Assembly: GCF_029227915.1 (NCBI RefSeq)
Contig: NC_079886.1
Coordinates: forward strand, 9,176,001 to 9,240,000
Direction of reading: 5' to 3'
Origin: Hydractinia symbiolongicarpus
Taxonomy: Eukaryota; Cnidaria; Hydrozoa; Anthoathecata; Hydractiniidae
DNA length: 64,000 nt
Part shown: positions 13,500 to 50,900 of the stretch, piece after piece
Layout of the letters: each line of letters starts with the position of its first letter
Numbering within the stretch: the stretch's first letter is position 1
Translations under genes and position numbers: made by a program
Notes under the pieces: generated by a model
The model's input: only the letters and a program-made list of their open reading frames with translations
Database searches by the model: none
Told to the model about the DNA's origin: nothing

Positions 13500-19623
<6,124 letters not shown>

Positions 19624-24054: not shown

Positions 24055-24060
24055 TTTATT
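24055..24060 (-). promoter_or_regulatory. AATAAA overlapping the UNC45 stop codon
   Basis: On the minus strand the last codons read CAA TAA A, so a canonical AATAAA spans the stop codon. If used, the 3' UTR would be only about 15-30 bases. A downstream signal cannot be excluded. Confidence 0.4.
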
Positions 24061-27000
24061 GACCAGGATTCTCTTGAATTATTTTCCATTTCTCCGCAGC
24101 ATTAAAACATCTGTTTAACTCATTGCTTAAGTTTTCTTGGGTTACTGTCGCTTTCAGCGCTAATAATACTTCAAAGAGTTCATCTTCAATCAACTTCGCA
24201 GCGATTTCTTTTTCACTCTCAAGCAGGTTTGCAACGATGAAAAGTCCTCGATGTCGAAGTTCCAGATTTTGTGATGTCAATAAAAATTTCAAAATTTCTA
24301 AATGCGATTTTATCTCGACTACCATTTTGCAAATTTCGGCATCAGAAGTTAAAATTGCAAGCGTACCTGCGGCGGCACGTGCTAATTCCGGCGGATCTTC
24401 CCCACAGTATAAAGTTATTAGCTTGACACGCTCCGTCGGGGATGTTTTGTCTTTGAAACGATTAAACGCTTGCTCGTTTAAAACCAAATTGCACATGCAT
24501 TCAGTTGCTGCTCTCCGTAAATCGTCATCTTCTTCAAACATCAACGCTTCGATCTCTTCAAAACCCTTCTCCTTCATAATTCTTCTGCGAACATCGTCAT
24601 TCATCGAAGCTAGGTTAGTCAAAGCCATTAAACCTTCAAAGCGTAACAATGGGTCTCGTCTGAAATGAAGCATTTTAACGAAGGGTCGCACAACTTCCAT
24701 GCAACGTTGACCAGTAAAAGCCAACCTAGGGTCATTTGTGATTGCAATTCTGGCTAAAGCTTGCGAAGCCAAGTCCTCTCCCTTTTCCGTACCGGACAGA
24801 GCAAAGGGAAGAAGAGTTTTCACACCACCTTGGGCGATTATTTTCCCACGCAGACTCACGTCAGTCGCAACGGCGGAGAATATCCGTGCTATCATTTCCT
24901 TGGTGTTATCACTTCGAACATTCTTGAAATTTACGAGGGCCGTTACGAGGCCATGCTCGATAAGTTTTGTGACACGTTTAGTAACAAAATCTTCAGCATC
25001 TTTCTCGTGAGCCTGGGGCAGAGGTTGTTTAGCAAATTTTGCAATTTCTTCGAGCTCTGGGTTCCTATCGGGTTTATCATAACTGTTCGTCAAATTAACA
25101 AGCGTATTACAGATGCCGTACATCACAGTCGTATCGTCGGATTTAGCAAGATCAAGTAATGTGTTCAGCGCGGCAGTGTCGTCGACTAAGAGTTCTTTGA
25201 CATCGGCGTCTAAGGTGAGATATGCTAGTCCCTCACACGCCCATTTTTTCAGCTCAAACTCTTTACTCGTGCTCATCAAAAACTTTCGACACGCTTGATA
25301 CAATTTTTCGGCTCCATCATCTACTAATATCTGATCGCGGACGCTACCAGAACCTTTCATGCACACCTTACACAGCGCCACCAAACCTCGCACACGTATG
25401 CTATGATCACTAGACTGGTATAACTTCTTTAAAATTTCCAAACCTAGTTCTGCGATGGAGTTGCATACTGTTTTGTCTGTGGCAGCAAGAGCCAATACTT
25501 CTCCAGCTAATCGCTTAGCTACGCTCTCCTCCCTGCAGGCCAACACCATGACCTTACTAATGTTATCATTCTTTGTAGCCAATGTTTGACCAGTTTCTCT
25601 CGATGAAAGAATTACTGTTGACAAAGCCACTAGGGCTTGAAGATTCACAGTAAAATTCTTAGAATCGATCAATGAGTTCACAACAGATTCAACCTGCTCC
25701 ACATATTTAACCTTCTCTTTCTCATGATACTGTATGTATTCGAAAATTAAAGATAACGCCACAGACACGTGAATGTAGGTTTTTTCGGTTACCGGCAGAG
25801 GAGCTGCTTCATTTATCATAGGAAAACAACTTAACGCTGCTAACTCCAACAGTTTCCGCACTCCTTTATTGACGATGATGAAATCTCCCACGCATTTATG
25901 ATAACCAATCGCTTTTATAAAAGCATCTACCACAGCATCTCTTCCTTCTGCGGGCAGTGCTTTATCGCTAAGCAAACTAACAAGAAGTTGCAGTAATGTC
26001 AAATACGAAGGAATCTTTTCCACGTCTGCCTTTACTTTATCCTGACTCTCCTTCACAAATACATACTTTCCTTCTTGCTCTGGTTTTAATTTATGCAGTT
26101 CCTTGAAGTGCTCAATCATTGCTTTTAAAATCACCGCCACAACGGAGAGTGTGTTTGTGGTGTGGTCAATGTTGCTTGGATACTCCAAGACAGCATGTTG
26201 AAGCTTACTGACTGGAAATATTTTCAACACGGCTAGTGACTGTTGCAAATTGTTCTCGCAAAACCCATGCAGAATTTTCATCAGACTAATTGAATTTTCA
26301 ACATCCCCACTGAGGAGAACAATTAGTTTCTCTAAGTAGCCCTCCTTAAATAACACGTGACGACCGCCGGATTGGTGAGAATAGATTACAAGATTTGACA
26401 GCGCCTGCCTTTTCCGTTCCGGGGTCTCTGTTTTGCTAGCCAGGGCTTCCATCATGTCGTTTATCATACCGCTGGTTGATTGTGTTTTCGATAGTTTTTC
26501 TTGTGCATTCAATCTGATTCGGCGAAAGGCTTCCTGAATAGCAGTGTTCTTTGGTTCCAACTGGATAAGTCTTTTGATGTCAATAAATGCTGGTTCCAGT
26601 TTTCCCAGGGCTTCGTTTGCCTGACATCTACATAAAAAACATTATAGGTATCAACTTTAACTAATCTACTGACTGGAAAAAATTGAATGGTTTTTACTAG
26701 CGTAAACAAAAATGTTTGACAAAGTTTGTTGATTCTTCAACCTGTTGGTGAAGAAGGACGATTTGTTTTTGAGATTAACAAATAAAGTCTCTCTAATGCC
26801 TGTGTCTAATTTAATCACCTATAACAATTCAAGAAAAGTTTCCCAATGTTAAACATATGCTTAAAAAACATTCCACGACCTGAGCGTAAATATGCTTATA
26901 AACGTCGCGCTTATTAAAGAAAAACTGAAAACATGCAGAGAATATTTTATTAATTGTTGCAATGTACTTTCCACGGACGCCGTATAGAAAAAATGTGTCA

Positions 27001-27967: not shown

Positions 27968-27973
27968 TTTATT
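27968..27973 (-). promoter_or_regulatory. AATAAA overlapping the NDPK stop codon
   Basis: The minus strand reads GAA TAA TAAAATTT at the end of the ORF; AATAAA begins within the stop codon. Candidate polyadenylation signal for a very short 3' UTR. Confidence 0.4.
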
Positions 27974-28427
27974 ATTCATATGTTGCATTCTGAAGTGGAT
28001 GTGTCCAGTCAACCAATTCTTCCTTCTTAAACCAAAGATCGATCTCTTTTTGTGCAGATTCGACTGAGTCACTTCCATGTACAATATTTCGCCCCAAATC
28101 GATAGAATAATCTCCTCGGATTGAGCCAGGCTTCGATTTCAATGGGTCAGTTTCACCCATCATAGCTCGACCTTGCTTCACAACATCTTTACCTTCCCAG
28201 ACCATAGGGACAACAGGTCCGGAACCAATGTGTTTGATTAAAGAAGGAAAGAATTTTTTCTCGCTTAAGTCAGCATAGTGCTTCTTCAAGTGATCTTCGT
28301 CAGCTTTCATGAACTTCATGGCAACAAGCTTGTATCCTCTTTGTTCAAATCGCTTAGTTATCTTGGATACCAATCCCCTGGCAACGCCATCAGGTTTAAC
28401 CATAATGAAAGTACGTTCAGATGCCAT
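27972..28427 (-). CDS. Nucleoside diphosphate kinase (NME1/2-type)
   Basis: Transfers gamma-phosphate between NTPs and NDPs through a phosphohistidine. A single exon of 151 codons, the family's standard size, from [14 protein letters not shown] to the end. Key features: KPDGVARG with the catalytic-site lysine, the RGYKLVAMK strand, the Kpn loop region, and [10 protein letters not shown] with the active-site histidine. The ORF continues 30 codons further upstream, but the ATG before ASERT is chosen because it matches the family start and lies 26 bases after an acceptor-like TTTTCTTAG, so the 5' UTR is probably spliced. AATAAA overlaps the stop. The gene lies upstream of UNC45 on the same strand with a 255-bp gap. 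Confidence 0.97.
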
Positions 28428-28512
28428 TATGATATTGTAAAGCACAGAGTATCTAAGAAAATAAGACAATATCTTTAGTTTGGTATATCTCAATATGTAA
28501 CAAAATTTGTGC

Positions 28513-29030
28513 CACAAAACAAAAACAGGAAAGTGAAGCAGCCTTTTGAAGTTTGTTTACCTGCAATAATAAAAAGATTAGTTTTTGAAAACTACAATAT
28601 TTTATTGTTGCAGCTAATTTTACGCACTAAGAAAAGAAAAAAAAGTGATTTGACTTTTTTTAATGTCTTTGTTGACAGAGATTTTTCAGTATAAAAACCG
28701 TAACTTTTAAATGTTTACTGTTTACAGTAAGAGGAAATTCCATAATAAACTTCACCATGCTGTCAATCACACCCAATCAAATTTTTAAAAACTGTCCTAC
28801 ATGCAACTTTGTTTTAAAAGCTGCCACAAATTTTTATGATTTCATGTAAGAAATTTATTACCAAACCTTGTAAAAAATTTTTAAATCGTCTACAACCATG
28901 CAAGTTTATGTTTTAGCCCTTGTTTAACAAAAAACAGGAAAACGAAGTAGCCTTTTTCCAGTTTGTTTATCTTTAGTGATAAAAGGATTATATAGTTTTT
29001 AAAAACTATTTTATTATTATTATTCTGAAT
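28513..29030. repeat. Direct repeat pair upstream of NDPK
   Basis: About 28513-28610 and 28925-29030 share AAAACAGGAAA, GAAG(C/T)AGCCTTTT, AGTTTGTTTA and AAAAACTA...TTTTATT in the same order and orientation. About 400 bp apart and moderately diverged: a local duplication or two copies of one element. Confidence 0.6.
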
Positions 29031-29250: not shown

Positions 29251-30851
29251 TAGATCTATATTATATTAAACGTGTATCAAGTATCAACTTAAATGTGTAT
29301 CAATAAATATCAACTTCACAGACTATACACTGCCACAGACAGAAAGAAATTTAATTATTTTACATTTTTTGACATAACTTACTGTAACCACATTTGATTA
29401 TAGCTAAACTGATTATAAGCAATGACTCAAGCTGAAAATATGTAGATTGATTTATCTTAGGGGGCAAGTATATAACTATAAACTACATACAAATTCTCAT
29501 TTTTTTCATAATATTTAAGGCATTCGCACAAGCAAAAAACGTGTTTAGGCTGAGCAATTAACAACATGCCTAAATAGTTATTGTATGTGTAGGCTATTCT
29601 CTTGTGGCAAAATGAGAAGTAACGAAAATACCTACATATTTGTTTTTTATAATTAAAACATTTATACATGGCACGAAAAGAACATGGCATAAACAAATTT
29701 TGTCCCCAGAATCAATAATTACATTAACGGTTGACACCGTTATCAAACAAAAGTCAACTTGGTTTGTACATGTTATTAATTTGTGACGTATACAGCGTAT
29801 TCATCTTCTCAGAGTGATTTAAATTTATTGAGATTCGAGTTAAATTTGACATGCGAAAACAGGTAAAGAATAAATAAAGAATTTGAGACTGTTTTTGTTT
29901 TGCTTTGCTTTTACAAAATAATTTCCAGTACACTTCATTGTGCATAATCTTCTGAACTGAAAAGGCTTCATCAACACTGTCATGGGGGCAACTGTAATAC
30001 TACTTTGACCTTAAATACCTTGAGAAGTTCACAACTTGTTATCAATCATTAGATCTCCTTTAATAAACAAATTAATGCAAAAATACTATATATATATATA
30101 AAATACATATAGACTTTCTGATGACAGGTTTCCATGTTAGTGGTTCTTACTGCCTGCCTGTTATAACCTTATGTTAAAATTTGTCTTTGTCAATGTTAGA
30201 TTTGTCTGATAAAATAAATTTTTGTTTCAGAGAAAAATTTTCATCATATAAAATTTTCTGAAATACTTTCACTTTTGTTTTAAAATAAATTTCTTGGCAA
30301 GGGAAGTGGTAAGGCAAATGTCCACAAGGGATTATATGGAACCAAATCAAACATAAAATACTGACTGAAAACCCTGTTTCAGATCAATCACGGTATCCTG
30401 CACATATTTCCCACCAAATTTTACCCTTACAATATAGCCAAAATAATAGCTGATTGCCTATTTGCCTCCAGTATCCAAATATCGCTGTAGAAAATAAAAT
30501 ACATTTTAAGCCAGCAAAATCATTGGCAAAAATATGTTCTGTATTACTTTTGTTACCACTGAGCTAAAACAGGAAAATTTGCATGTCCTGATTTGTTTGC
30601 CACGCAAAGAAATAACAAAAATATTGGGTAAACACAACAAGGTTAAATATCTGCTTAAAAGCATAGTAAAATATTAACTTTATTTGGCTTACCTAACGAA
30701 ATGCGGCAGTGGAAAGAGAACGTGTGAATGCGCCCTGATGAATTTACGTCCTAACACCCTCCATCGTAGATATTTAAGGGCATACGAAACGGCTGCTGGT
30801 TTTCGATTTCAGTGACTTACACGAAAGTCGAGCTAGGGGCGGTGTGGAAAG

Positions 30852-30898
30852 CACGGCTGTTTCAGCTAGCGAGATTTCGGAAACTCAGACTGCGCATG
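30852..30898 (+). repeat. Left terminal inverted repeat of RAG1-like transposon (47 bp)
   Basis: CACGGCTGTTTCAG, then a 12-nt spacer (CTAGCGAGATTT), then the 21-bp block beginning CGGAAACT and ending GCGCATG. An A-run (AAAAAAAAA) follows at about 30901. Confidence 0.88.
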
Positions 30899-31331
30899 TC
30901 AAAAAAAAATTTAAAATAAGGACTGGGGCGAGTTGCGCTTAAAAGTAAACAAATTTTAGGGTAGCTAGCACCAGGTTTAATAGGCATTTTAATCACATAA
31001 ACCAACTTAAGGACTGGAAACTAAGTGGTTTAAATAAAATATAGTCCTATACCAATAAGATTAATTCAAATACAAAGCTATTCGCTTGTTGCCTAGCTAA
31101 AACAAAACAAAAACTTTCAACCTCCATTTTGAAGACTGTGGACACCATGCCAACTTAAAGCAAAATATTTTCAGATACGAAGTTATCCCACAGATAATTT
31201 TTATAAAAATCATTCCAAGATAGTTACGAGATACGAATAAAAAAAGAACTGTAGGTGTATCAGTACATTACGAATTGATATTGTATCAAACATTAGGTAC
31301 TTTTTTTTCAAAATTTTTGTTAAAGTTCAAG

Positions 31332-34300
31332 ATGGCTACTGGGGATTTACACCTAGCTCGGTTGAACAAGCTGTGTCGAATATGTGGAAACACTCTGCCT
31401 GGACGATCACATATTGTCCAAGAGCACATAAAGAACTTGGACAGTATTTTCAGAGCTGATTTTTATTCTGATCGGGCAGGCATTCACCCAAAAAAATTCT
31501 GTCACTCGTGCTTTGCTACAATAAGTAATGTCCTAAAACGTGACTCAGCTACCGCTATTGTGCCTGTTAAATGGTATACACATAAAGACACCGAGTGCAA
31601 AACATGCATATTAAGTGCACAAAAAAAGAGAGGTGGCAAACCTATGAAAAGAAGGGGCGGTGGTAACCCAACACACAAAGCTGTGGATTCCGCAGAAAAA
31701 ACTTGGACACCCCTAGAACTTAATAAAATTTACAGAAAAACCTCTGAACTTTTTGACTATAGTGGAAACGTTCTCTCAGACATAAATATCAGTGAAGGCA
31801 ACTGGGAACATCTGATTTGTGCTTTGTGTAGCAATATTTTAAAAAGGCCATTAATGATAAACCAATGTAACCACGTGTTTTGTGCCTTGTGTTTAACAAA
31901 TTGGTTGGAAAATTCAAATAGATGTCCCACCTGCAGCATCCCAACAACACCCGGGGATGTCTCGCCTGGTTTGTGCATTTCCAGGATTTTAAACACACGA
32001 GTTGTCAAGGGAACATTTAAACTGCTGTCTGCACAATCGCACACATGCTCTCCAGCATTGTCATTTACAACACTAGAGATGATGCAGTTGAGCCCTTCCA
32101 AGCCTGTACCGAAAAAGGTAGAAGAATGCATTGCTCATGTGGTTGGAATAAAAATGCAGCAGTCAAACTTGCCGAATAAAACTGTCCAATTGCCCAGTGG
32201 AAGTTCACAAGTAAGATTACTTATGTATGGAGTGGACTCAGTAAAAGTGATTTGACATTGACTTTTTTTAACAAGCAACTGATTTTCAAACGGCTGATAA
32301 AGCAAAAAATTTTGATCTTAGCAATTTTAAGGCTGAAATCAAAACTGAAAATAAGTTGCTTTTGTATATGTCTATATATGTGCATACCTAGGTTATCATT
32401 TTTTTACAATTCCAGTGAAATGTTTCTTATACACATTTTTTATACAAAAAACAAGCCATAATAAGAACAAGACAAATTTTAAAATGTTCAGAGTAAATAA
32501 TTAAAAATAATAATAAATATAAGTAAGTGGCTAGAGGGGTCACAGAATATAGGAAGTTTTGGGGGTCAATAAAAACCATTCTATATATTAGGAGATTTAC
32601 TAAAATTTTGATGTGCCCACCCTAAATGCTAAGGCGTCTACATCGTTAAGTGATCTTATATAAAAAATGTGTATAACTACTTTATACAAAAATACAAAAC
32701 TATGCTATGTTATATTAAAAATAATGTACACATAATTGTCTGTAACAATATGATAATTTTAATAGTAATATTACATTTTACATAAAACAAATTAATAACA
32801 TATGTTCCATATTTTAGCCATTGACAATAACACCCATTAGAATTCCTCGCAAGTCTTCTGATGAAACATGTGAAAGGAATGTGCGGAAAAGAGCAAATAC
32901 AGCCAAGGAGTTAATCCATCTGATGTCTGGTGAAGAAACCCAATCTGTCACAAAACAGACCACAGCACTGCTAAAGTCTATGGAAGAAAGTGACAGAAAT
33001 ACTATCATTAAAAATTTGGGTACAGAAGTCATTATTCCAGCCAATCACATCACAGCAATGAAATCAAATTTAAACATGCCATGGAATCAACTACGTGAAA
33101 TATCACGTTGGTTGAAAACATTCAACATAAAAATTGAATCAGAAAAAAAAGCAAGAAGTGTCGCTGCTGAATGGGTAGGCCAAGGACTGAGAGTTGAGCT
33201 GGCTCCTCTCACCAAATTATCAGTTGGAAACAGGGTATCCGTTATACCTAGGCCCTGGGGGTATCTGTATAATGTAGTTGGCCACATTCTGTATCAACTC
33301 AAAAAGCTAGAATGTCACAATTTACTTGTAAAACATAGTTTCATTCCTGACAATGAGATCCATGTTAAAATTGGTGGAGACCATGGAGGAAATAGTTTTA
33401 AAATGGCATATCAAATAGGCAATGTTCTAAACCCAAACAAGAAGGAAAACACAATAATGTTTAGCATTTTTGAAGGTAACAAACATTAATGCAATATATT
33501 ACAAATATGAAAAAAAAAAAATTAAAACTGGAATTTCCAAAATTCTATGCATGTGATGTCTAATTGTGATCTAAAGTAGAAATGATCTAAGTGATCTAAA
33601 GTAGAAATCAAAACATTTTTTATATATTTTTTTTAAATTAGGGAAAGACACAAGAACAAACTTAAGAGTCTGCCTTGAACGGTTTCGACCACAAATAAAA
33701 ATGCTGCAACAAGTCAAATATAAAGAGTCGATATTCCGTGTATTTATGTATGGCGACTACGAATTTCTGTGTGCAATGTATGGTATAACTGGTGCAAATG
33801 GTAAATATTAATTACTTAAGATCTGGGGCAAGTTGCTAGTTGATAATCAAAATTAATTAATTTTTGACCACAAATAAAAATGCTGCAACAAGTCAAATAT
33901 AAAGAGTCGATATTCCGTGTATTTATGTATGGCGACTACGAATTTCTGTGTGCAATGTATGGTATAACTGGTGCAAATGGTAAATATTAATTACTTAAGA
34001 TCTGGGGCAAGTTGCTAGTTGATAATCAAAATTAATTAATTTTTACAGAACTTTTTTTGCAACTTCATAAAGTTCCTGTAGTTTAACAATGGGTTTTTAC
34101 TACGCAGATATGGGAAATGCATAGTTAAAAATGGTTTATTTTTAAAAGTTTCTAATAAAATATGTATACTTTAACATTTGTGTTTAGGGCGTCACAGCTG
34201 TTTGTTTTGCAACATTACCTCAAAACTAATGAACATCCCAGTGTTTACTCGCAAGAAATTTAAGAAAAGGTCACTGGCGACACTTGAAGAAAATTTAGCA

Positions 34301-35964
34301 GATTTCCGTGAAAGTGGTGGGAGCCCTAAAAATGCGAAAGAATTTTATAATGTCATTGACAACATATTTTTTGACATACCTATTGATCAAGTATACATCA
34401 TATTTTTATGCTTTTCCACTGCAAGTTGATTTAATAATCCCAAAATAAAATCTATATAAACACCTAATTTTAGGTCTGTATTCCTGGTCTTCATATTTCC
34501 TTGGGTGTATATCAAAAGATGTTTAAAATGTTTGAGTCTTCTTGCCAAGACTATGATGTAAAAATAGCTCTGCTGTTGGCAACAGAAGACAATGAACTGG
34601 ATTCAGATTATGGTGACTACATCGAAGTCCTTAAAGAAACAAATGACTTGCAGCAAAAGCTGGAAGATGAAAAAGCCAAATTAGCAAACCAGCAAGATCA
34701 GTTAAACTGGCTTGTAATATCTGGTGGCTTACAACGAAATATACTGACATACGAGAAAAGTATAATAAAAACTGAGAAGAAAATCACAGAATTAGAATTA
34801 GAAATCTCAACCTTGGGAAACAACAAAAGAATTTTAGTGGGTATGATCATTTTTATTACCTAAGTAATTTTTTGTGATATTCGCAAATGTTTTTTTGTCT
34901 GGAAATTCCAAGAAATTTAATTCCCGAAAAAAAACTTTCCAAAATTATAATTTTCATTCTGATCTTATGATGCAAGCCTTATATTCTCTCCAATCTAAAG
35001 CTATGTTTAATAGTTTGTTCATCTTATTTTAGGTGTTGGTCCTTGTGCTTCTTCAATAGATAAAACGCTGCAAAAAATGGGTGTTGAACGTCAGGCCTAC
35101 CATGGCCAAAGTTTTATCGGCAACCATGTACATAAATTGCTAAAGGTTTGTTAATACTAACAATAATGTAGCAATTTAAAAATAACATATTTAAAGAAAA
35201 TTAAAAAAACAATCTTGCTCTTATAGAAAGAAAACATCCAAAATTTAACATCCAGCATTAAAGAGATTGTTGCAGCACAAAAGCATGATGACCAGCTTAT
35301 TCACAGTGTGAATTTAGAAATGGATAAGTACGACATGTTATTTACTTACTTTGCAGAAGTTCATAACATTTACAATTCGGCAAAATATCTGTCATGTGAG
35401 GAAATACTGGCTTTAGGTGAGAAACTTGTTCCTTTTTTTAATAATAAATAAGTTTTTTTTAAAATTTCATGTGCCAAAAACAAAACAAAAAGAAAGAATA
35501 ATATACATATAGTACATAATTCTAGAAATTTCAATTAATAAATTCATGATGCATCTGCGAACTAACTGGCCAAAAGTTAATATTTCACCAAAACTGCATA
35601 TGCTTGAAGATCATGTCACTGAGTTCATAGCAAAATGGAATGTTGGATTTGGGTTTTATGGCGAACAAGGTAAACAGCCACTTAAATTTGTAACCTGGTA
35701 ACACCAAAATTTGTGTTTTTTACCAAAATGTGTTATTTTTCAGAAAATGTGTAGCTAGCTAGCTTAAATGTCAAATTATAACATTTTTAAGGTGGAGAAA
35801 GCTTGCATCATGAAATCAACAGGATGTCGAGCAGGTACAGCTGCATCAAAAACCCAGTCGAGCGGTTACGAAATACATTAAAGCAACATTTTGTTAATGT
35901 AAATCCTGAATCGAGCCAATTAAAACCAAAAATTAAAAAAAGAAAAATTGCACGTGAAGAATAA
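31332..35964 (+). CDS. RAG1-like transposase: zinc NTD + RING + DDE core
   Basis: Nine exons join in frame: 31332-32210, 32818-33475, 33642-33800, 34188-34390, 34474-34840, 35033-35145, 35227-35416, 35526-35669, 35792-35964 (961 residues). Residues 15-92 match the RAG1 N-terminal zinc region: CRICGN (C15, C18), IHPKKFCHSC (C57, C60), then V-x-W with C89 and C92. Next is a basic stretch. A C3HC4 RING follows: C163, C166, C179, H181, C184, C187, C198, C201. Core candidates for the catalytic triad: D481 (KIGGDHGG), D551 (MYGDYEF) followed by C570-x2-C573, and E907 (GEQGGESLHHE). A coiled-coil-like stretch lies in exon 5; the C-terminus is basic (KIKKRK). ATG 31332 is chosen at the start of RAG1 similarity. 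The residue-level triad is inferred by analogy with RAG1 and CMC transposases. No frameshift or stop was found. Confidence 0.88.
33687..34044 (+). repeat. Perfect 179-bp tandem duplication inside the transposase gene
   Basis: 33687-33865 and 33866-34044 read identically, covering the last 114 bases of transposase exon 3 (including the D551 codon), its donor and part of the intron. The second copy has no acceptor in front of it, so it should be spliced out. Identity implies a very recent event or an assembly duplication. Confidence 0.9.
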
Positions 35965-36275
35965 CTTTTAGACTTACAGCTTAGATAGCTAGTTATATCT
36001 TTAACTGCATATTAGCATTACTTTGCAAGCTCCTTTAGTCTTTGCATTATTTCAAAGGTGGATCAGCTGGTCTAGAAAGAAAAAGAATTGAACAGTTAAT
36101 TAGCTTACTACATGCATAGTTCATTTTTATTTGACTTTTTGTCGAGCTTACGTTAGTAGTGTATGAGACGCAGAAACCTTATTTAGAGTTACAGAATTGT
36201 TTATATAGAATGTTGTTTAGTGTTGTTATTCTGTGAAATATTAGCTTAGTAAACTACAACAGTTTTAATGCCTAC

Positions 36276-36281
36276 AATAAA
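36276..36281 (+). promoter_or_regulatory. AATAAA, candidate polyadenylation signal of the transposase gene
   Basis: First canonical AATAAA downstream of the transposase stop (about 310 bases), still inside the transposon. Confidence 0.4.
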
Positions 36282-36755
36282 TCATACAGTAGATTATGTC
36301 AAAGAGGGAGTTAAAATTTTCAGGTTTTACACTAACTTTTATTGCCAGAATTCAGCGCTCTAGCATTCTTTCAGAAGTACTGATACAGTTTTTTCGTTTT
36401 TCTTACCTTGTAGATGAGCCTTTCAGCTTTCCAAAAATATATAATACACCAGCCACATAACTTCGCAACGTCCACAAAACCAAAAATTAGTTGGAACAAG
36501 TTGCCATGTTAATTTTAACAAAAAAAAGTATGCCTTCAAAACTGCCACAGTATTACTCCAACAGCATGCTTGTCGCAAAGGTAAAAGAAAGATTTAGCTT
36601 CCAGCGTGTTGAAATGCTTTAAAAAACTAAATTAAATCCACTGAAATAGATTCTATCATGCAAAAGCGATTTCAAAAAGTTAGTTACTTATTTATCATGA
36701 TTGTTTTTATTTGCGCCCGCCATCTTGCGCCTCAACGTGGCCGTAATTATTGACG

Positions 36756-36792
36756 CATGCGCAGTCTTAGTTTCCGCTCTGAAACAGCCGTG
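36756..36792 (-). repeat. Right terminal inverted repeat of RAG1-like transposon (37 bp)
   Basis: Read inward on the minus strand: CACGGCTGTTTCAG, then a 2-nt spacer (AG), then the same 21-bp block with one mismatch. The spacer is exactly 10 nt shorter than on the left side. Confidence 0.88.
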
Positions 36793-38911
36793 AAAGCTTA
36801 AAGATGAGGACAAAAACAACAACTTAAATCATCTTAAATATTATATTATGCATCCAAATATAACTGAAAATGACAGAAAAGTTGCCTACATATTTAGACA
36901 TTCATTATTTATTCGATATAGAAGGATACCGCTTTTAACTCAAACTTTCTAATAATAAAATGACCTTTAAAAACCTTGGAACTATCTAGTCTGGCTAGCT
37001 CTATCCTTCGAAATTTTACTCAGAAACATATAAGTTTATTGTACATTAAGACAGTCTAAGCAGCAACATAGTAACATAACATTTCCTAACAAATACAGCT
37101 CCTAGTGTTGTCTCTGTGTTTCCTTGTCAAAACAAACTTAATATTTTTACAGACCGTAACTTATTTTACCGCCAAAAAAAATACTGAATTTTTCTTTCTT
37201 CAGAAAATAAAAAGCAAATTCATCATAAAAAATTAATTATTTATAAATGCTGTCTAGACGTCTATGTCTATAAATTTCTTGGAACTGGACTTTTTGAGTG
37301 GCCCGTTTATTACACGCCAGTCTTCGAAAATTGCAAGGGTTGAGCTCATTGAATCGTCCTGTAGCCCCTTTTAAATTGTAACTCCCCGCCCCCGCCCAAA
37401 ACTTTTATTAAGACAACAAAGAATGTTCGCATTATTTAATCTCTCATTTCCGAAGTTGTTATTACTTTCTCTAATTTTGTCAAAGTGCGCACGCGCTAAC
37501 AGAACAAAGTTCGTGTTAATTTTTTTCGCGCTATTTCTGATCTAAGAGTTAATCGTTAAGCATTTAGCGCGCGAAGGATTATAGTTAATATTAGCGCTTA
37601 TTGTTATCGACAGTAATATTTCATTTTGTAGAGAAAAACTTTTTTCACCCGCCGTTATTTGCGAAAAAAGTTTGCACAAATAGCTACAAAATGTGTTCGC
37701 GCTAACTCGCAATGAAACATCAAGAATTGTGGCGCACAAATTTGAATTGAAGTTGACGCGCTAATATAAATTGTCTGTGTTTTCATTTGGCGTAAAAGAC
37801 CTAACTACGATTAACGCGCCAGCTTAACGCGTACTAAAGCCAGATGGAAACCAATCTTTATAAGCGTTAAAAAAATAACTTCAATTAACACAACGGCTTA
37901 AGGCGAATTAAACAGGAAAGTAAACAACTATATGAAGCATAGCATGAGGAGCACATGTGCAGAAGTTGTAAGATAGATTGGTGAAATTTGCAGAATTTCT
38001 GCAAGAAAACTAACAAATTATTACTAGATTTAAAGAAAGAGCAGAGTTATGTTGCTTTATAAAAAATACAAAGGAACAAACGAACGATTAAATCAATTGA
38101 TATATTACAATAAACAACTTATACAAGAAATCCTCTGCAAAAACCACCACAAATTTACTTCTCAGAATAACCTCGTTCCAGGAAAGTTCATAACTACCTC
38201 CAAAGACAGGTTGTTAGATTTAGATTTCTGCAGATTAATCACCTGATTTCTTTTTTTTTGAGTAGACTTTACTTAAATAGTGTTAAAAAACTTTTCATTT
38301 CCGTTCCTTTAGAGTGGGAAGGTGAGAAAGCAAGGAAGATGTTGTGCACAACTGAAATTGATCTTTTGCCGTGCCGTCAAAAAGGTAATGATGGAAAGTA
38401 ATGTTGTCAGTATTTGACGTCGTCGTACGAGCTATCCAACAATTAACCCGAACTGCAGAAAAATTTATATAAATTAAAAACCATGTCAACTAAAATTTAT
38501 AATTATAGCTTAAATATACCAAAATTAACAACTTTGTACCCGGGGATTGGTAATTTTTTTTACATTTAGGAGGAATCTGGACTAGATCCTGGCCGGTTAT
38601 ATGGCGAATTTGTGTGAATGTACCACTCTGCATAATTAAATCGGACGAGTGATTTATCCGCGACTTATCGAGTAAGAAGTGAGAACGCACGCCATAAGTA
38701 TAAAAGACCTAACAATCCCTGGGTACGAGGATACAAAACTAAGAAAACAAAGAGTTGCATTGTATCTAAAAGAAGATCTATATAAACAAACCAATCCAAT
38801 TCCAGGAAGCTCTTTCTTTGAGTTCGACATTTACTATCCATATTTTGTCAAATTTAATTAAATTATCGTTTTCAGTTTTTCACTACTGTTCATGTTTTTT
38901 CATCCAAAGTA
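36793..38911. other. Region between transposon and integrin 3' end
   Basis: No gene is supported. 37490-37830 is dense in GCGCTAA/TTAGCGC-type words (GCGCTAACAG, TTAGCGCGCG, TTCGCGCTAACTC, GACGCGCTAATA), probably a dispersed repeat. Plus-strand open stretches at 38049-38246, 38312-38380 and 38679-38861 are bounded by splice-like sites, but I could not join them in frame and recognise no domain. Confidence 0.45.
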
Positions 38912-41900
38912 TTACTGTCCTCCAAAGGCTGGGTTAACGAACTGCTGATTCGGCTCCCGGTACAACGGATTATCACCCTAAAAAGAAGCAATAAATTTGT
39001 ATGAAAGTCTACAATTTCTCGTAAAATATATTGAGACAACAAATTTCAAGGTTAATCCCCACAAGTAGTCATAAAGACATTCTATACTACATTCACGCAA
39101 TTAGATTTGTCGCTGACGCCAGCGTAGCTATCTCTCTTAAGATCAAGTGTAGTGTCATTCTCGGCGGCCAAATGGCTAAGATCATGCACTTGGTCTGAGA
39201 AGCGATCGCTCAGTTCATCTTGGGCTGTTCTAATTCAATTCCCGGGTAGAAGACGAAGTTTTAACCGATGTCTACAGCCGTCCTACCTTGGAGGCGCTCA
39301 TTTTTTTATAACATATATCACGACTTCGTTTTCTATCCTGTCCCCGAGGCAGAGTGCCAGTGAGAGTCATCTGGTACGACCACTCACCACACATTCCAAA
39401 GCTCGGGTAATTCACCCTTGCCGACCATTCCTCAGGAATGGTCCAAAAAAAATTAAAAAAATTGAGGGGCCTGACGTGCTACTAGCGTAATTTGAACGCG
39501 GATAACATAACATACACATTTAAAAAGTGCATGCTGTTTGACAACTTTAAAACTGCAAAATGGCCAAAAAAATTCCATTGTCTCCATATTTTCATTAGGC
39601 GTTGTAGCTTTTTTCTAAAATACGCACACGTCCTTAGGGTAAATGTTCTTTAAAAATCCACTAAACTTAGAAATGTAAGTACATTGAACCTGGAATTGAT
39701 TTGGAACCTCTTAGATTTTTCTGTGCAAAAACTGTGCGTATGCATTAGTCCCGGGTGAATATTTCGTCCAGATTTAATATGAAAATCACCGGATCAATTA
39801 ACAAAAATGTGGGCAAATTAAAGAAAATAACAACGGGGAAATAAACCTAAACAAAACATTTTCGCAATTTCCCAACCCTTAGAGCGCGTAGACATCTTCC
39901 CAAATAAACCGGCTAAAAGTAAAATTTCACCAAACTTTGAAAGGTCACAACTCTCGCTTATCTTCAAAATGAGCTCTGCCACAGCTCATTCAACGTAGAA
40001 TTTCACGCAGATTTGAAAACTTGTACAAAATGTTTCAGAGCAATCAACACCGAAACACAGGTCATATAGTTTCAGATAGAAAATAGTTATTTCATATTCA
40101 TTTAAATAGGAATCAAATGTTTTTAGGTATTTCGTATGATTATTTTAGATGCAAAGAAGTCTAGCAATGTGAAGATCCGATGTAAAAATCGATTGAAGTT
40201 ACCTTTTCCCATACACCTTTGCTCTTAGACTTCACAAATTTCTCATAATCTCGTCGATCCTGGTAAAAGCAATAAATTATTACAACAAGGTTTCCAGAGC
40301 TTTATAGTTTGAAGAATTCAAGAAAAAATATGGCATAAAATGAGTGAAAACAGGATTTTTAGATTAAACAGATTCTACAAGCAAAGTCATAGTCAAACAG
40401 TTTAAATTCAAATCAAAATTCAGTCAACAACATTACATCTATAAGTCTTTCTATGCATTTTTTATGATGATTGGCTAGACATAATTAAAGTGAGAAAAAA
40501 AACAACAAAAATAGACCAGTAGAAAACGTGTTACAAAAGCAAATAGACAAACAAACAAACAAAAAGAACGAACGAACGAACGAGCAAGCGAACAAACAAA
40601 TGAGTAAACAAATGAGTAAACACATAAGTAAACAAACAAAACAAACAAGCAAACAAACTGAAGAAAATAATTTCCGCCTACGTGAATTGATGTTATTAAT
40701 TTCCATAACAACAAGGCGAGTATTCCTAGCAACAAAATAGCACCAATGATTGCGAGGATAATAACAAGTATGTCAGGATCATCATCGCTCGAACTCTTGG
40801 CTGTACATACTAAAAAAATAACATAAAATATGTTTTAGCGACTGTAGTAGAACTTTAAGTACAGCAGTTAGCAAGGAAAGTGTTCCACAGTTTGCTGTCA
40901 TTTTGCTTTTCCTAAGGACTATAACGTGAATCGCTTTTTCTTATACTCTACATAACTGCTGAAACATTGGCAGAAAAAAGATACGTCATTTACATGTGAT
41001 GTATGGTGTTAAAACGAAAATAAAAGACATCCGTCACTGTTTGTTTCACAAGTACCATACAAGTGAGATTTGTGAGATTTATGACAAAGAACATGGCACG
41101 GAGTGACACTTGTCGTGTGTACAAGGTGTACAAATCTGAGCAGGGTAAGTAGAGAAATACAAATATATACAACGATGCTTATAATCTCTAAATGTTTATA
41201 ATTACAGTTAAATCTCGCTAGCTTGAATTCTGAAGGAACATGCAAATGTTTTGACCCTAGGCTCGAGAAACGAGGTAAGACAAGGAGCAATCATAAAATG
41301 TATCCAACTTTATGTTTATCAAACTCACAAATCGAAGTGTACGGTAAACGTCAGTCCAACGTTTAGATCGGTTAGCTTTTGTTTTTCTGAGTCATAAATA
41401 AAATAATCATCGACATAGCATTTAAATTTTCAAATTTTTCCAAAGAAGTCTGAAACTTGACTTTGCCTTATAACTGACCAATTTTCTTCTTGCATGAAAT
41501 ATTTTTTAACTAGTCAATAGCCCGTGGATAAATCCAATGGTTCGCCCATAATTTATTTACCGCATTTCGTTGTCTCGGTGCTGTGGTTACCATTTTGCGT
41601 GACATATTGCATTTCGTGTTTCCGTAACAAAAATACAACAAGACGCACGAAAAGACAGACGGAATACGCCTATCATTAAAAATTTTTTTATTGAATAGGC
41701 ATTGTCAAAAAATCGAGATATCCAGTTTAGAGTTACAGAGAATATTTTATTTTAATCAAGTGCTCGGAATCCTGATAAATCATTCGATATAAAAACTCTC
41801 GAGACATTGTATGATAATAAGAATCAAATGGCGACGTTTTAATATATATACCTGGAGTCTTTTGAACAACAATGGTTTTATTTTTAGCATTACCAGCAAA

Positions 41901-44900
41901 GTGAAAATTCACCACACAGTTCGCCAAGGACGTCCCACAAACATTATCTTTGCCTATTTTTGTTTCGTTGATGAAGTCAACTTTCTCAATAGTTAACTTC
42001 TCACATGTGGCACATTTGTCGTTTTTCTGGTCGAAGGCCTGACACAATACACAGTCCTTAATTTGGTCACACTGACATTTGCCACTCTAAAAAACAAAAA
42101 CAACATCTGAATATTTTGGACATATGGATCTTACAAGCATTGACTTTGGATATTGTGTCATAAGTAGGAAGCGTAACAGTTATCCCCAAAATAATTCCAT
42201 GTGCTTCCCACTACTACAGTTTAATGTTTCTTAATGACTTCGGTATCAAATTTGCGTTAAGAAATAACAAGCTTAATTTTCAACAGCAAGATAAAGCAGA
42301 ACATTGCCTAAGATACAGATACAGAGGTCTGTACCAAATCAGTTGCCACATAGACTAACTTAGACCCAAAGTGGAAAACAAATTTTTTCCTGGATTTCCA
42401 CGAAAGCTTCTTTTTTTCCTGACTCAGCATGAAAAAGCAAGCGTTTCTTTACAAGTACTTAATAAAGAAATGAATAGAACTGAATAAAATTTGCAGCTAT
42501 AAAAATGTTCTTACCACACACGTCTGGCAATACTTCCCTTCATGGGTGCTGTTGCATACACAGCCTTGTAATGGACAATCACATCTACCCTGGTTATTGC
42601 AAACTTTCTAAAATATTAAAAAACACGTTTGAAACGTAATAATTCTTCCTTCAGCCCAATTTACACTGGCGGTGGGGCGGGAATGGGAACGGTGTTGACT
42701 TTTAATATTTGTTTGTTGGTAACTTTTGAGGATTTGCAATCCCATTTTGGGAGTTACCATGACAACCGTGATGCTAAGAGTGATCCCAGAAAAAAAATCC
42801 AGGCTATTATTTTTCTTGCTTTTTCCATTGTCCCAAATGGAAAATTACTGACTTTAGCAAATGTTTAACATGTTGATCATTTTGTTTTATGTTATATATA
42901 TATACTATACTATATTCAAGCAAAGCCATTACAAAGGTATTTAAGGTGGTTAATTTTCTCCCCTCCCCACGATATTTCATATTTTAGAAGTCCATTAAAA
43001 ATATGGTTAAGAGATAAGCAAATAAATATGTAATTGAAAGGGTTGTATAATAAAACAGTTGTACTTATTAACTGTTATGCGCTTAAAACGATCGGTAAAT
43101 CAACAAATTATGGTATTTAAAAATACTACAATCAGACCTACCCCGTCATTGGTGCATTTTGACCTCGTGATGCCTACACAGTCAATTTCATTACAATTAT
43201 CACCTTTGTATCCTTCGTTGCAAACACATGTACCACACTGGCAATTTCCACGAACACCTAAATGTCGAACGTCATTCAGTTACTAGCTAAACCAGTGTGT
43301 TGGTAAGCTTTTGCGTGATGCAGTAAATATATTGTTATCAATGCATCACTATATTCCAAAATTTGTTTTTTTATGACTTATAATTCGGAAAGAGACATAA
43401 ATTGATGTAATCAAAACCCAAGTTAAAAAACAAAATCGTATTGGAGCTTAAAAATTTATTACTTGAAGAACGCAATAAGAATTCTTTTATTTTACCACTT
43501 CAAATGTTTTGTTTTCTAATGTTGCTATGACAACTTACCGCCACATTCCTGTCCCAAAAATTTCGGACAGCCGAAATTTTTACATTCACAAAATGGACCA
43601 GATATAACGTTAGTAGGATTCTAAAAAAAAGCACAATTATTATCATTCTTTTTGTAGACAACAAATTTATGTTTCCCTGTGCTCTATCATTCTTTTTGTA
43701 GACAACAAATTTATGTTTCCCTGTACTCTATCATTCTTTTTGTAGACAACAAATTTATGTTTCCCTATGCTCTATCATTCTTTTTGTAGACAACAAATTT
43801 ATGTTTCCCTATGCTCTATCATTCTTTTTGTAGACAACAAATTTATGTTTCCCTGTGCTCTATCATTCTTTTTGTAGACAACAAATTTATGTTTCCCTGT
43901 GCTCTATCATTCTTTTTGTAGACAACAAATTTATGTTTCCCTATGCTCTATCATTCTTTTTGTAGACAACAAATTTATGTTTCCCTATGCTCTATCATTC
44001 TTTTTGTAGACAACAAATTTATGTTTCCCTATGCTCTATCATTCTTTTTGTAGACAACAAATTTATGTTTCCCTATGCTCTATCATTCTTTTTGTAGACA
44101 ACAAATTTATGTTTCCCTATGCTCTATCATTCTTTTTGTAGACAACAAATTTATGTTTCCCTGTACTCTATCATTCTTTTTGTAGACAACAAATTTATGT
44201 TTCCCTGTGCTCTATCATTCTTTTTGTAGACAACAAATTTATGTTTCCCTGTGCTCTATCATTCTTTTTGTAGACAACAAATTTATGTTTCCCTGTGCTC
44301 TATCATTCTTTTTGTAGACAACAAATTTATGTTTCCCTGTGCTCTATCATTCTTTTTGTAGACAACAAATTTATGTTTCCCTGTACTCTATCATTCTTTT
44401 TGTAGACTACAAATTTATGTTTCCCTGTGCTCTATCATTCTTTTTGTAGACAACAAATTTATGTTTCCCTGTGCTCTATCATTCTTTTTGTAGACAACAA
44501 ATTTATGTTTCCCTGTACTCTATCATTCTTTTTGTAGACAACAAATTTATGTTTCCCTGTACTCTATCATTCTTTTTGTAGACTACAAATTTATGTTTCC
44601 CTGTGCTCTATCATTCTTTTTGTAGACAACAAATTTATGTTTCCCTGTGCTCTATCATTCTTTTTGTAGACAACAAATTTATGTTTCCCTGTACTCTATC
44701 ATTCTTTTTGTAGACTACAAATTTATGTTTCCCTGTGCTCTATCATTCTTTTTGTAGACAACAAATTTATGTTTCCCTGTGCTCTATCATTCTTTTTGTA
44801 GACAACAAATTTATGTTTCCCTGTGCTCTATCATTCTTTTTGTAGACAACAAATTTATGTTTCCCTGTGCTCTATCATTCTTTTTGTAGACAACAAATTT

Positions 44901-47900
44901 ATGTTTCCCTGTGCTCTATCATTCTTTTTGTAGACAACAAATTTATGTTTCCCTGTGCTCTATCATTCTTTTTGTAGACAACAAATTTATGTTTCCCTGT
45001 GCTCTATCATTCTTTTTGTAGACTACAAATTTATGTTTCCCTGTGCTCTATCATTCTTTTTGTAGACAACAAATTTATGTTTCCCTGTGCTCTATCATTC
45101 TTTTTGTAGACAACAAATTTATGTTTCCCAATGCTCTATCATTCTTTTTGTAGACAACAAATTTATGTTTCCCTGTGCTCTATCATTCTTTTTGTAGACA
45201 ACAAATTTATGTTTCCCTGTACTCTATCATTCTTTTTGTAGACTACAAATTTATGTTTCCCTGTGCTCTATCATTCTTTTTGTAGACAACAAATTTATGT
45301 TTCCCTGTGCTCTATCATTCTTTTTGTAGACAACAAATTTATGTTTCCCTGTGCTCTATCATTCTTTTTGTAGACAACAAATTTATGTTTCCCTGTGCTC
45401 TATCATTCTTTTTGTAGACAACAAATTTATGTTTCCCAATGCTCTATCATTCTTTTTGTAGACAACAAATTTATGTTTCCAATGCTCTATCATTCTTTTT
45501 GTAGACTACAAATTTATGTTTCCCTGTGCTCTATCATTCTTTTTGTAGACAACAAATTTATGTTTCCCTGTGCTCTATCATTCTTTTTGTAGACAACAAA
45601 TTTATGTTTCCCTGTGCTCTATCATTCTTTTTGTAGACAACAAATTTATGTTTCCCTGTGCTCTATCATTCTTTTTGTAGACAACAAATTTATGTTTCCC
45701 TGTGCTCTATCATTCTTTTTGTAGACTACAAATTTATGTTTCCCTGTGCTCTATCATTCTTTTTGTAGACAACAAATTTATGTTTCCCTGTACTCTATCA
45801 TTCTTTTTGTAGACTACAAATTTATGTTTCCCTGTGCTCTATCATTCTTTTTGTAGACAACAAATTTATGTTTCCCTATGCTCTATCATTCTTTTTGTAG
45901 ACAACAAATTTATGTTTCCCAATGCTCTATCATTCTTTTTGTAGACAACAAATTTATGTTTCCCTATGCTCTATCATTCTTTTTGTAGACAACAAATTTA
46001 TGTTTCCCTGTACTCTATCATTCTTTTTGTAGACAACAAATTTATGTTTCCCTGTGCTCTATCATTCTTTTTGTAGACAACAAATTTATGTTTCCCTGTG
46101 CTCTATCATTCTTTTTGTAGACTACAAATTTATGTTTCCCTGTGCTCTATCATTCTTTTTGTAGACAACAAATTTATGTTTCCCTATGCTCTATCATTCT
46201 TTTTGTAGACAACAAATTTATGTTTCCCTATGCTCTATCATTCTTTTTGTAGACTACAAATTTATGTTTCCCTGTGCTCTATCATTCTTTTTGTAGACAA
46301 CAAATTTATGTTTCCCTGTGCTCTATCATTCTTTTTGTAGACTACAAATTTATGTTTCCCTATGCTCTATCATTCTTTTTGTAGACAACAAATTTATGTT
46401 TCCCTGTGCTCTATCATTCTTTTTGTAGACAACAAATTTATGTTTCCCTGTGCTCTATCATTCTTTTTGTAGACAACAAATTTATGTTTCCCTGTGCTCT
46501 ATCATTCTTTTTGTAGACAACAAATTTATGTTTCCCTGTGCTCTATCATTCTTTTTGTAGACAACAAATTTATGTTTCCCAATGCTCTATCATTCTTTTT
46601 GTAGACAACAAATTTATGTTTCCCAATGCTCTATCATTCTTTTTGTAGACAACAAATTTATGTTTCCCAATGCTCTATCATTCTTTTTGTAGACAACAAA
46701 TTTATGTTTCCCTGTGCTCTATCATTCTTTTTGTAGACAACAAATTTATGTTTCCCTATGCTCTATCATTCTTTTTGTAGACAACAAATTTATGTTTCCC
46801 TGTGCTCTATCATTCTTTTTGTAGACTACAAATTTATGTTTCCCTGTGCTCTATCATTCTTTTTGTAGACAACAAATTTATGTTTCCCTATGCTCTATCA
46901 TTCTTTTTGTAGACAACAAATTTATGTTTCCCTATGCTCTATCATTCTTTTTGTAGACTACAAATTTATGTTTCCCTGTGCTCTATCATTCTTTTTGTAG
47001 ACAACAAATTTATGTTTCCCAATGCTCTATCATTCTTTTTGTAGACAACAAATTTATGTTTCCCTGTGCTCTATCATTCTTTTTGTAGACAACAAATTTA
47101 TGTTTCCCTGTGCTCTATCATTCTTTTTGTAGACAACAAATTTATGTTTCCCTGTGCTCTATCATTCTTTTTGTAGACAACAAATTTATGTTTCCCTGTG
47201 CTCTATCATTCTTTTTGTAGACTACAAATTTATGTTTCCCTGTGCTCTATCATTCTTTTTGTAGACAACAAATTTATGTTTCCCAATGCTCTATCATTCT
47301 TTTTGTAGACAACAAATTTATGTTTCCCTGTGCTCTATCATTCTTTTTGTAGACAACAAATTTATGTTTCCCTGTGCTCTATCATTCTTTTTGTAGACAA
47401 CAAATTTATGTTTCCCTGTGCTCTATCATTCTTTTTGTAGACAACAAATTTATGTTTCCCTATGCTCTATCATTCTTTTTGTAGACAACAAATTTATGTT
47501 TCCCTGTGCTCTATCATTCTTTTTGTAGACAACAAATTTATGTTTCCCTATGCTCTATCATTCTTTTTGTAGACAACAAATTTATGTTTCCCTATGCTCT
47601 ATCATTCTTTTTGTAGACAACAAATTTATGTTTCCCTGTGCTCTATCATTCTTTTTGTAGACAACAAATTTATGTTTCCCTATGCTCTATCATTCTTTTT
47701 GTAGACAACAAATTTATGTTTCCCTGTGCTCTATCATTCTTTTTGTAGACTACAAATTTATGTTTCCCTGTGCTCTATCATTCTTTTTGTAGACAACAAA
47801 TTTATGTTTCCCTGTGCTCTATCATTCTTTTTGTAGACAACAAATTTATGTTTCCCTATGCTCTATCATTCTTTTTGTAGACTACAAATTTATGTTTCCC

Positions 47901-50900
47901 TGTGCTCTATCATTCTTTTTGTAGACAACAAATTTATGTTTCCCTGTGCTCTATCATTCTTTTTGTAGACAACAAATTTATGTTTCCCTATGCTCTATCA
48001 TTCTTTTTGTAGACTACAAATTTATGTTTCCCTGTGCTCTATCATTCTTTTTGTAGACAACAAATTTATGTTTCCCTATGCTCTATCATTCTTTTTGTAG
48101 ACTACAAATTTATGTTTCCCTGTGCTCTATCATTCTTTTTGTAGACAACAAATTTATGTTTCCCTGTGCTCTATCATTCTTTTTGTAGACAACAAATTTA
48201 TGTTTCCCTATGCTCTATCATTCTTTTTGTAGACAACAAATTTATGTTTCCCTATGCTCTATCATTCTTTTTGTAGACAACAAATTTATGTTTCCCTGTA
48301 CTCTATCATTCTTTTTGTAGACTACAAATTTATGTTTCCCTGTGCTCTATCATTCTTTTTGTAGACAACAAATTTATGTTTCCCTGTGCTCTATCATTCT
48401 TTTTGTAGACTACAAATTTATGTTTCCCTGTGCTCTATCATTCTTTTTGTAGACAACAAATTTATGTTTCCCAATGCTCTGCAGTTATTCTAGCTCTTCA
48501 GTAACCCACAATTTTTTTCATGTATTGCATAGATGGGGCAAGTTATCATAAAAGTACCAATAATTGTTTTTCAAGTTAAATTGAACTAAATTTAGAAATA
48601 TGCAAACTTAACGATACAGCATTTCAATATAAGAAAAATCTTCATGAGTATCATAGCATTCGTGAAAGGGTGTGTATTAAGTCATCACAGTATCAAGTTA
48701 ATTCTGCTTACCGTTTGTTTGAAACACTCACACTTTCCACAAACACAATTTCCTTGGTCACTACAAGTTGTTGTATTGTCATTTCCAATGCAAGCGTTTG
48801 TGTTGTTTACCTGCTGCTCCGTTGTTATATCACACTGGCAGGTGGGACCATAGTTCCCTTCATTGCATTTGCATATACCACACTCAAAAGTACCCGCACC
48901 GTTACATTGTGGGCTGTTCTTCACATTGTTGATGCTACAATCGCAGTCACATAAGTACTTCACAGGCACAACAACTTCACCGAAACCAGCAATACGAATT
49001 GAAAAACTAAGAATTAAACAATGATTGGTATTAATAGCTGAAGACTTTACAGATATAATGAGCAAGTGCTTAATATTCAACATATTTTTTGGATATATCC
49101 AATTCTTTCACTTTCCTGCCTCTAAGACTTTATACTGTAAATCATTAATTTTTTAGAAAAAAATTGTATATTTTACTGGTTGTCATCCACAAGCTTCACA
49201 GAAGCGCAGATGCTAGTGTTTGTAATTCCAGGGATTGACGGTACTGGAAGTTATATTTTTTGATTTTAACTTCTAGAGCAGAGGGGAGGGTGAGGGACAT
49301 ATCAGAAGATGGTCAGATTGACGTTTGGCTCACTCTTGTCAATTTGTGACTCCATGCTTCCTCTCTGTACATACTGTAATGCAGGTGTTTTCTGAGCATG
49401 CTGTATATAAGTTTTCTCACTTGAAAATACTACTTCTAATGATTGTTAGAAATTATTTTCCTAAACATGTATCTTCTATGTTACGTTTCACTCCTGCCCT
49501 TAAAATTTCCACCCTAGGAATTTATTTGCGATAAGATGTGACTCTGAAAAGCAACCGATTAATCAAAAACTGTCTGGTCAAATCAAAGCATTGTCTTACT
49601 TACCTCTTTGGTGCTTTAGATACATCTGGTGGACACGACAAAAGCTCCACATTGACATTAAAATCAACCTGCTGTCCTATCTTGACATCAGAACATTCGT
49701 TCGGTTTTAAATTGTCAGCGCTCGGACAACTACTTCCATTGACCTGGTAAGTGACTTTAAAGTAGTCTGGAGATGTATCTACAAGTCTGGCTGTAGACGA
49801 AATTTTCTAAAAGTATAACAAACATGTATAAACTTATATAAGACTTAATTAAAGCAAATACAAATTTGTATATACAACTATGTAGAAAAGTTTATTGGGA
49901 GGGGCTCATGAGAAGCTGGGGAGTTACCACACCCGCAGTATTGGTTAACAACAAAGTTATTTATTACCATTCCAAATAAACATTCTAAAGTTATTTATTA
50001 ACAGATTCAAAACACTGCAATGTGGGTTCTCTCTTCAGAATATATACATTAGGTGTACACATGCATTGCCTACACAATTTTTCTCACATGGCATGGGTTG
50101 ACCCGAAGATGTGGGAAAGGCACTTGCTAAACATGCCTGTGCTGTGGACCGAACCACAAACCTTGTGATTACAAGGCGAACCCCATAACCACAATGCCAC
50201 ATGCCACTCTGGTAAACGATGTAAGGTTTAAAATACGTTGCAAAGCTTGATATTAAAAAAAATTAAAATAAAATATTTTTATTGTTGCAAATTATTTTGC
50301 TACATGATGCTAAATCACTCAGAGCCTTTCTTTAAAAATAGCATTTATGCAATCTATATCTTTTGTAGATTGTTAATTTTACTCACTGCATAATTTTCTT
50401 TCACCAGTTCAACAATATTGGACGAGTCGCTGGTCAACTCACCAATTGCTGCGCCAAGGTCTTTCCACTCATTTGCAATTGCCTAAGATAGATTTTAATG
50501 TTGATTCTGTGAATGGTTGGGAATTTAAAGGAAATTAGCCAAAAACATCGTAAAAACATCCTAAAACACCCTATAAGAATTTCTTACAAACAGATTTTAA
50601 TCATCAGACTTTAAATATTTCTTCCAGACAAGCAAAAAAAATCGATTTTCAGTCAGAAAAAATCATTCTGACCAACATGACTACATATGACACATCTATT
50701 AATTTGAACGTTTAACTATTCACTACTAGTACAATCTGAAGATTTATTTTTGAAACTGAAATTTCTAATGTTATGTCAATTTTTTTGTGGAAACATATAT
50801 TTAAGTTGCCTCCTCCTTATAAATAGCTATGCAACGATTAGTCACCAAAACAATAAAACCTACATAACACGCTGTATATCCTGTATTGTATGAGAAGTAA

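Follow-up and report, generated by a model that had tools for sequence, protein, structure and literature searches.

The 64-kb stretch analysed here (the window), from the genome of the colonial hydroid Hydractinia symbiolongicarpus, carries at positions 30852 to 36792 an element that almost certainly belongs to a young Chapaev family of cut-and-paste transposons (CMC/Transib-related) of autonomous type. The assignment to Chapaev rests on a transposase core matching DUF1280, which is the Chapaev transposase family (PMC3985635), on termini of the form 5'-CAC...GTG-3' and on 4-bp target-site duplications; duplications of 3-4 bp and CAC..GTG ends are described as hallmarks of Chapaev (PMC4079192). 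Furthermore, the predicted protein combines the Chapa domain (Pfam RAG1_imp_bd) with a RING domain, and Chapa followed by RING has been reported for two Chapaev subgroups by Kapitonov and Koonin (2015), whose tree includes Hydra and Nematostella (PMC4411706). This architecture is therefore already known in animals including cnidarians, and the union of RAG1 N-terminal and catalytic-like parts outside deuterostomes, to which a sequence-only reading of the window had drawn attention, is not new. The kind of element is known; of interest are its youth and the number of its unbroken copies. No published Chapaev family from Hydractinia symbiolongicarpus was found in the literature, although the family may be catalogued in Repbase. 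The element is delimited as follows:

30848..30851, no strand: left target-site duplication AAAG, 4 bp rather than 5 according to the other copies
30852..36792, plus strand: DNA transposon copy assigned to Chapaev, 5941 bp, complete at both ends and flanked by a duplication; the assembly contains 23 more copies with two ends
30852..30898, plus strand: left terminal inverted repeat, its first 14 bp perfect and followed by an inner block of 21 nt
36756..36792, minus strand: right terminal inverted repeat
36793..36796, no strand: right target-site duplication AAAG, 4 bp according to the other copies

Within the window, the octamer CACGGCTG is found at exactly two places, on the plus strand at 30852 and on the minus strand ending at 36792, and none of 100 shuffles contained it two or more times. 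The inverted ends share 13-14 identical bases followed by the inner block of 21 nt at 95%; about 50 nt can be aligned with gaps, and AAAG lies directly outside both ends. In the window alone, GAAAG can also be read as a 5-bp duplication with a shifted end; this reading is excluded by the 4-bp duplications of the other copies. No further copy of the transposon is present inside the window.

Between the ends, nine exons with GT/AG borders at all eight introns splice into 961 codons with a single stop at the end:

31332..32210, plus strand: exon 1, start codon, Chapa (RAG1_imp_bd-like) at residues 5-102, RING at 163-201, post-RING stretch
32818..33475, plus strand: exon 2, where the core begins, with DUF1280 and D481 as putative first catalytic Asp
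33642..33800, plus strand: exon 3, putative second catalytic Asp D551
33683..34040, plus strand: 179-bp tandem duplication spanning part of exon 3 and intron 3, present as 1, 2 or 3 units elsewhere
34188..34390, plus strand: exon 4, CxxC at 570-573
34474..34840, plus strand: exon 5, an insertion in the core of helical (coiled-coil-like) character
35033..35145, plus strand: exon 6, GNHVH motif
35227..35416, plus strand: exon 7
35526..35669, plus strand: exon 8, H(4)H, beginning of GEQGGES
35792..35964, plus strand: exon 9, remainder of GEQGGES including a putative catalytic Glu, either E907 or E903, and the stop codon

All 429 residues of the NCBI gene product LOC130657379 from Hydractinia symbiolongicarpus (P0125) are an exact substring of this protein (residues 533-961), which independently supports introns 3-8, that is six of the eight, while introns 1 and 2 are based on unbroken alignment to relatives. 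Matching inverted ends, AAAG on either side and a gene whose nine exons join into 961 codons had all been proposed from the letters of the window and are borne out by repeat search, alignment and splice check; the 179-bp tandem duplication and a 12-bp deletion peculiar to this copy had escaped that reading.

The family is abundant in the assembly. The first 149 bases of the element matched at least 40 places (40 of 48 candidates scored), the scored ones comprising 23 matches at 100% including the window copy, one at 99%, three at 92-96% and 13 at 75-83%; the last 149 bases matched 38 places (38 of 38 candidates scored), 23 of them at 100%. Our copy analysis covers the 26 other loci with a left-end identity of at least 92%, which were fetched whole; L014 (left 508 bp only) as well as L032 and L034 (diverged, one end inexact) were left out of the copy count, and from the 13 matches at 75-83% only four stretches were fetched whole. 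A 4-bp duplication is exact in all 23 fetched two-ended copies and a 5-bp match is found in none of the 23. Including the window copy, 24 of 24 two-ended copies thus carry a perfect 4-bp duplication, confirming the proposed transposon with terminal inverted repeats. L012 and L013 have common flanks and represent one insertion copied by regional duplication, which places the 24 copies at 23 distinct sites.

Between the window copy and 22 of the others there are 0-13 substitutions (0-0.22%), while L033 is an older copy at 6.2% distance. Among the 23 young copies 29 alignment columns vary, 19 of them privately in a single copy. L011, L016 and L030 share a dense patch of nine or ten neighbouring substitutions (alignment columns 1467-1478), which resembles the outcome of a single templated or inverted event rather than of separate mutations. 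When reading frames were judged by locating the exons one by one, 20 of the 24 copies proved to have a complete frame (19 of 965 residues plus the 961 residues of the window copy), with broken frames in L018, L023, L027 and L033. The 179-bp unit occurs once in the near-identical copies L010, L015, L028, L029 and L018 and three times in L012 and L013, its number leaving the frame open in complete copies. Recent mobility, as suspected from the window alone, is supported by 23 of 24 copies lying within 0.22% of the window reference and by the duplications at every one of the 24.

A search with joined flanks retrieved empty paralogous sites for two insertion sites, namely those of L012/L013 (two adjoining repeat units, 88% and 87%) and of L019 (one unit beside L025, 85%). 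Every empty site has a single 4-bp target and a junction without a gap; in the case of L012/L013 there is a one-base difference between the empty target and the duplicated one. The sequence-only reading had named the lack of a second copy or of an empty site as what would speak against it; 23 further two-ended copies exist in the same assembly and the empty sites belong to other copies, not to the window insertion, so that neither check contradicts it. Short derivatives with related ends were also found: L035 and L036 (G000 C12 and C13), which measure 287 bp and 960 bp and each carry a 4-bp duplication, are probable non-autonomous derivatives of a sister subfamily, and a derivative of 3475 bp has no matching duplication. 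The long spliced frame might suggest a domesticated host gene sitting by chance between inverted repeats, but this is hardly credible in view of 23 near-identical copies with duplications at different sites, deletion derivatives of 287 and 960 bp with the same ends, the copy number and the empty sites.

Pfam recognizes three domains in the 961-residue protein: RAG1_imp_bd at 5-102 (2.3e-6), RING at 163-201 (1.9e-11) and DUF1280 at 369-536 (4.2e-15; 56.4 bits versus a cut-off of 25). RAG1_imp_bd was found in eight of the eight N-termini of the alignment of relatives A5. The sequence also fits a pattern of DDE triad, C(2)C and H(3-4)H, with D481, D551, C570/C573, H881/H886 and GEQGGES at 902-908, E907 or E903 being the putative catalytic Glu. 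The original claim that one protein unites a RAG1-type N-terminal zinc region, a RING and a DDE-type core is thus confirmed by Pfam domains and motifs, and the structure of the core of a 32%-identical relative shows an RNase H core in the RAG1 arrangement. The first half of the Chapa domain (31332-31550, exon 1) resembles the zinc-finger-associated domain (ZAD), which serves dimerisation in zinc-finger proteins of insects. L3MBTL chains among the Chapa profile matches (6.6e-4 and above) contained no passing stretch and were judged to be chance. Matches of the exon-1 model in the PDB were dominated by RING and U-box chains, with 1rmd at rank 30 in one run; in a second run RAG1 was absent among the best 50 rows, which excludes nothing.

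Since the protein has a RAG1-type N-terminus with RING and the relative's core has a RAG1-like fold, a true RAG-like (RAGL/ProtoRAG) or TransibSU-type element, directly related to the RAG1 ancestor, has to be considered. It is very improbable. A duplication of 5 bp is reported for Transib and RAG1/2, and ProtoRAG likewise has 5 bp, but none of the 23 fetched two-ended copies shows this length; the core is DUF1280; and stop-free frames between the ends and the exons reach at most 56 residues, so that no gene the size of RAG2L, such as the convergent RAG2-like gene of RAGL/ProtoRAG, lies there. Membership in RAGL/ProtoRAG or Transib was rejected because of duplication length, core family and the lack of a second gene, and the label of a RAG1-like transposon gives way to Chapaev.

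Published Chapaevs in which Chapa and RING occur together (Kapitonov and Jurka, 2007; PMC4411706) share with the window element the order Chapa then RING, the Chapaev core, CAC ends and the 4-bp duplication, the Hydractinia family differing from those published in being unusually young, with near-identical copies. The proteins P0003 from Antedon mediterranea and P0138 from Ptychodera flava, compared as proteins alone, likewise unite Chapa, RING and DUF1280 at similar length and are 31-32% identical to the window protein. RAG1 and RAGL/ProtoRAG share the N-terminal zinc domain, RING and the RNase H core fold but differ in their 5-bp duplication and RAG2 partner, and sequence searches with the window protein gave no significant match to their core. 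Transib (HzTransib) differs in its 5-bp duplication and is reported to lack Chapa and RING (PMC4411706). N-RAG-TP of Aplysia also represents a RAG1 N-terminal-like sequence in a non-vertebrate transposon, but is described as consisting of nothing but such sequence (PMC8355894); by that description, the window element adds a full core.

The core alignment was matched by 43 database proteins at E 1e-3 or better (7995 candidates scored). A strict-pattern survey of 44 proteins, many of them fragments, found Chapa in 11, RING in 11 and both in five, and a Pfam scan of ten proteins detected DUF1280 in all ten, RAG1_imp_bd in six, RING in five and all three in two. The tree of 34 cores places the window protein in a 7-row clade (100/98) nested in a 13-row clade (100/97), the named members of which are all hydrozoan (Hydra, Hydractinia). 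A search of its own genome for DUF1280 returned 77 matches (all 83 candidates scored), and 22 of these belong to the family of the window element. A second set of 15 matches with near-equal scores and a 279-codon open frame (G000 C1, C2, C5, C6, C8, C11, C12) is possibly another young Chapaev family, and a match at 18470527-18471150 of G000 C14, whose surrounding open frame is unusually long at 1030 codons, is perhaps an intronless relative. Viral contigs queried with P0001 yielded four stretches fitting a pattern and no relatives.

Directly behind the RING, the window copy, alone among the 24, is missing 12 bp in frame, including two cysteines. Its frame is open over 961 codons, as first described, but the copy is not the fully intact one: it bears this private deletion relative to the 19 others with 965 residues, and its own protein may be impaired. 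That the family is young while the window copy is disabled by this deletion, moving only with the help of other copies, is a serious possibility that falls just short of an even chance. The frame of the window copy stays open, however, and several relatives of the same clade (e.g. P0127 and P0130) are wholly devoid of RING, which is why the post-RING region may be dispensable. Mobility of the family is independent of the protein of the window copy.

Judging from its domains, the single spliced gene encodes a transposase in which Chapa, the zinc domain of RAG1 type, stands at the N-terminus, ahead of a RING to which a zinc stretch is attached and of an RNase H core of RAG1 fold. The core most likely binds the CACGGCTG... 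ends and would cut beside CAC by means of the DDE triad (D481, D551, E907 or E903); the 3' ends would then be joined to target strands 4 bp apart, repair producing the 4-bp duplication. By analogy with RAG/Transib, hairpin chemistry may be involved, and the RING could act as a ubiquitin ligase on itself or on the host.

We put forward tentatively, with the balance tilted somewhat against it, that this Hydractinia transposon is currently mobile, that its transposase has the full RAG1 plan of Chapa, RING with zinc finger and RAG1-fold core, and that the first half of the N-terminus in Chapaev and RAG1 is a dimerisation module of ZAD type instead of a fold of its own. Several points weigh against the main reading of a young Chapaev with a RAG1-fold transposase core. 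The case for activity consists of the small differences between copies, their open frames and the empty sites, all read from the genome, and the available structure is that of the 32%-identical relative, not of the window protein itself. The best match of core profile A2 among solved structures is RAGL 6b40 at E 0.11, and core profile A3 gave no RAG1 among eight listed matches, these being coiled-coil and unrelated chains. Among the 17 Pfam matches of the window protein there is none to PF12940, the RAG1 core family; a search of its own genome for PF12940 gave no matches but is uninformative, as the control was also positive in none of 14 genomes.

The origin of the N-terminal third of RAG1, comprising zinc region and RING, is unclear, one published view being that the ancestor shared by Chapaev, Transib and RAG1 already possessed a core joined to Chapa and RING (PMC4411706). 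If our proposal is true, the 'non-core' N-terminus of RAG1 becomes open to study in a working transposase. Hydractinia is kept in laboratories, and at least 19 unbroken, full-length and almost identical copies make the family a candidate for cell tests of the N-terminal parts in transposition, with the window copy, which lacks the post-RING zinc stretch, as a natural variant for comparison.

The tubulin gene (2251-4013), the mitochondrial carrier gene (16816-17100), the UNC45 gene (24056-26641, minus strand) and the nucleoside diphosphate kinase gene (27972-28556, minus strand) of the window are ordinary host genes; UNC45 has a best match at 98% and is closest, among named proteins, to that of Hydra vulgaris (60%). 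A 44-bp tandem array (43641-48480) of about 110 copies at 97% lies between minus-strand exons resembling integrin beta (41733-42086 and 48685-49107).
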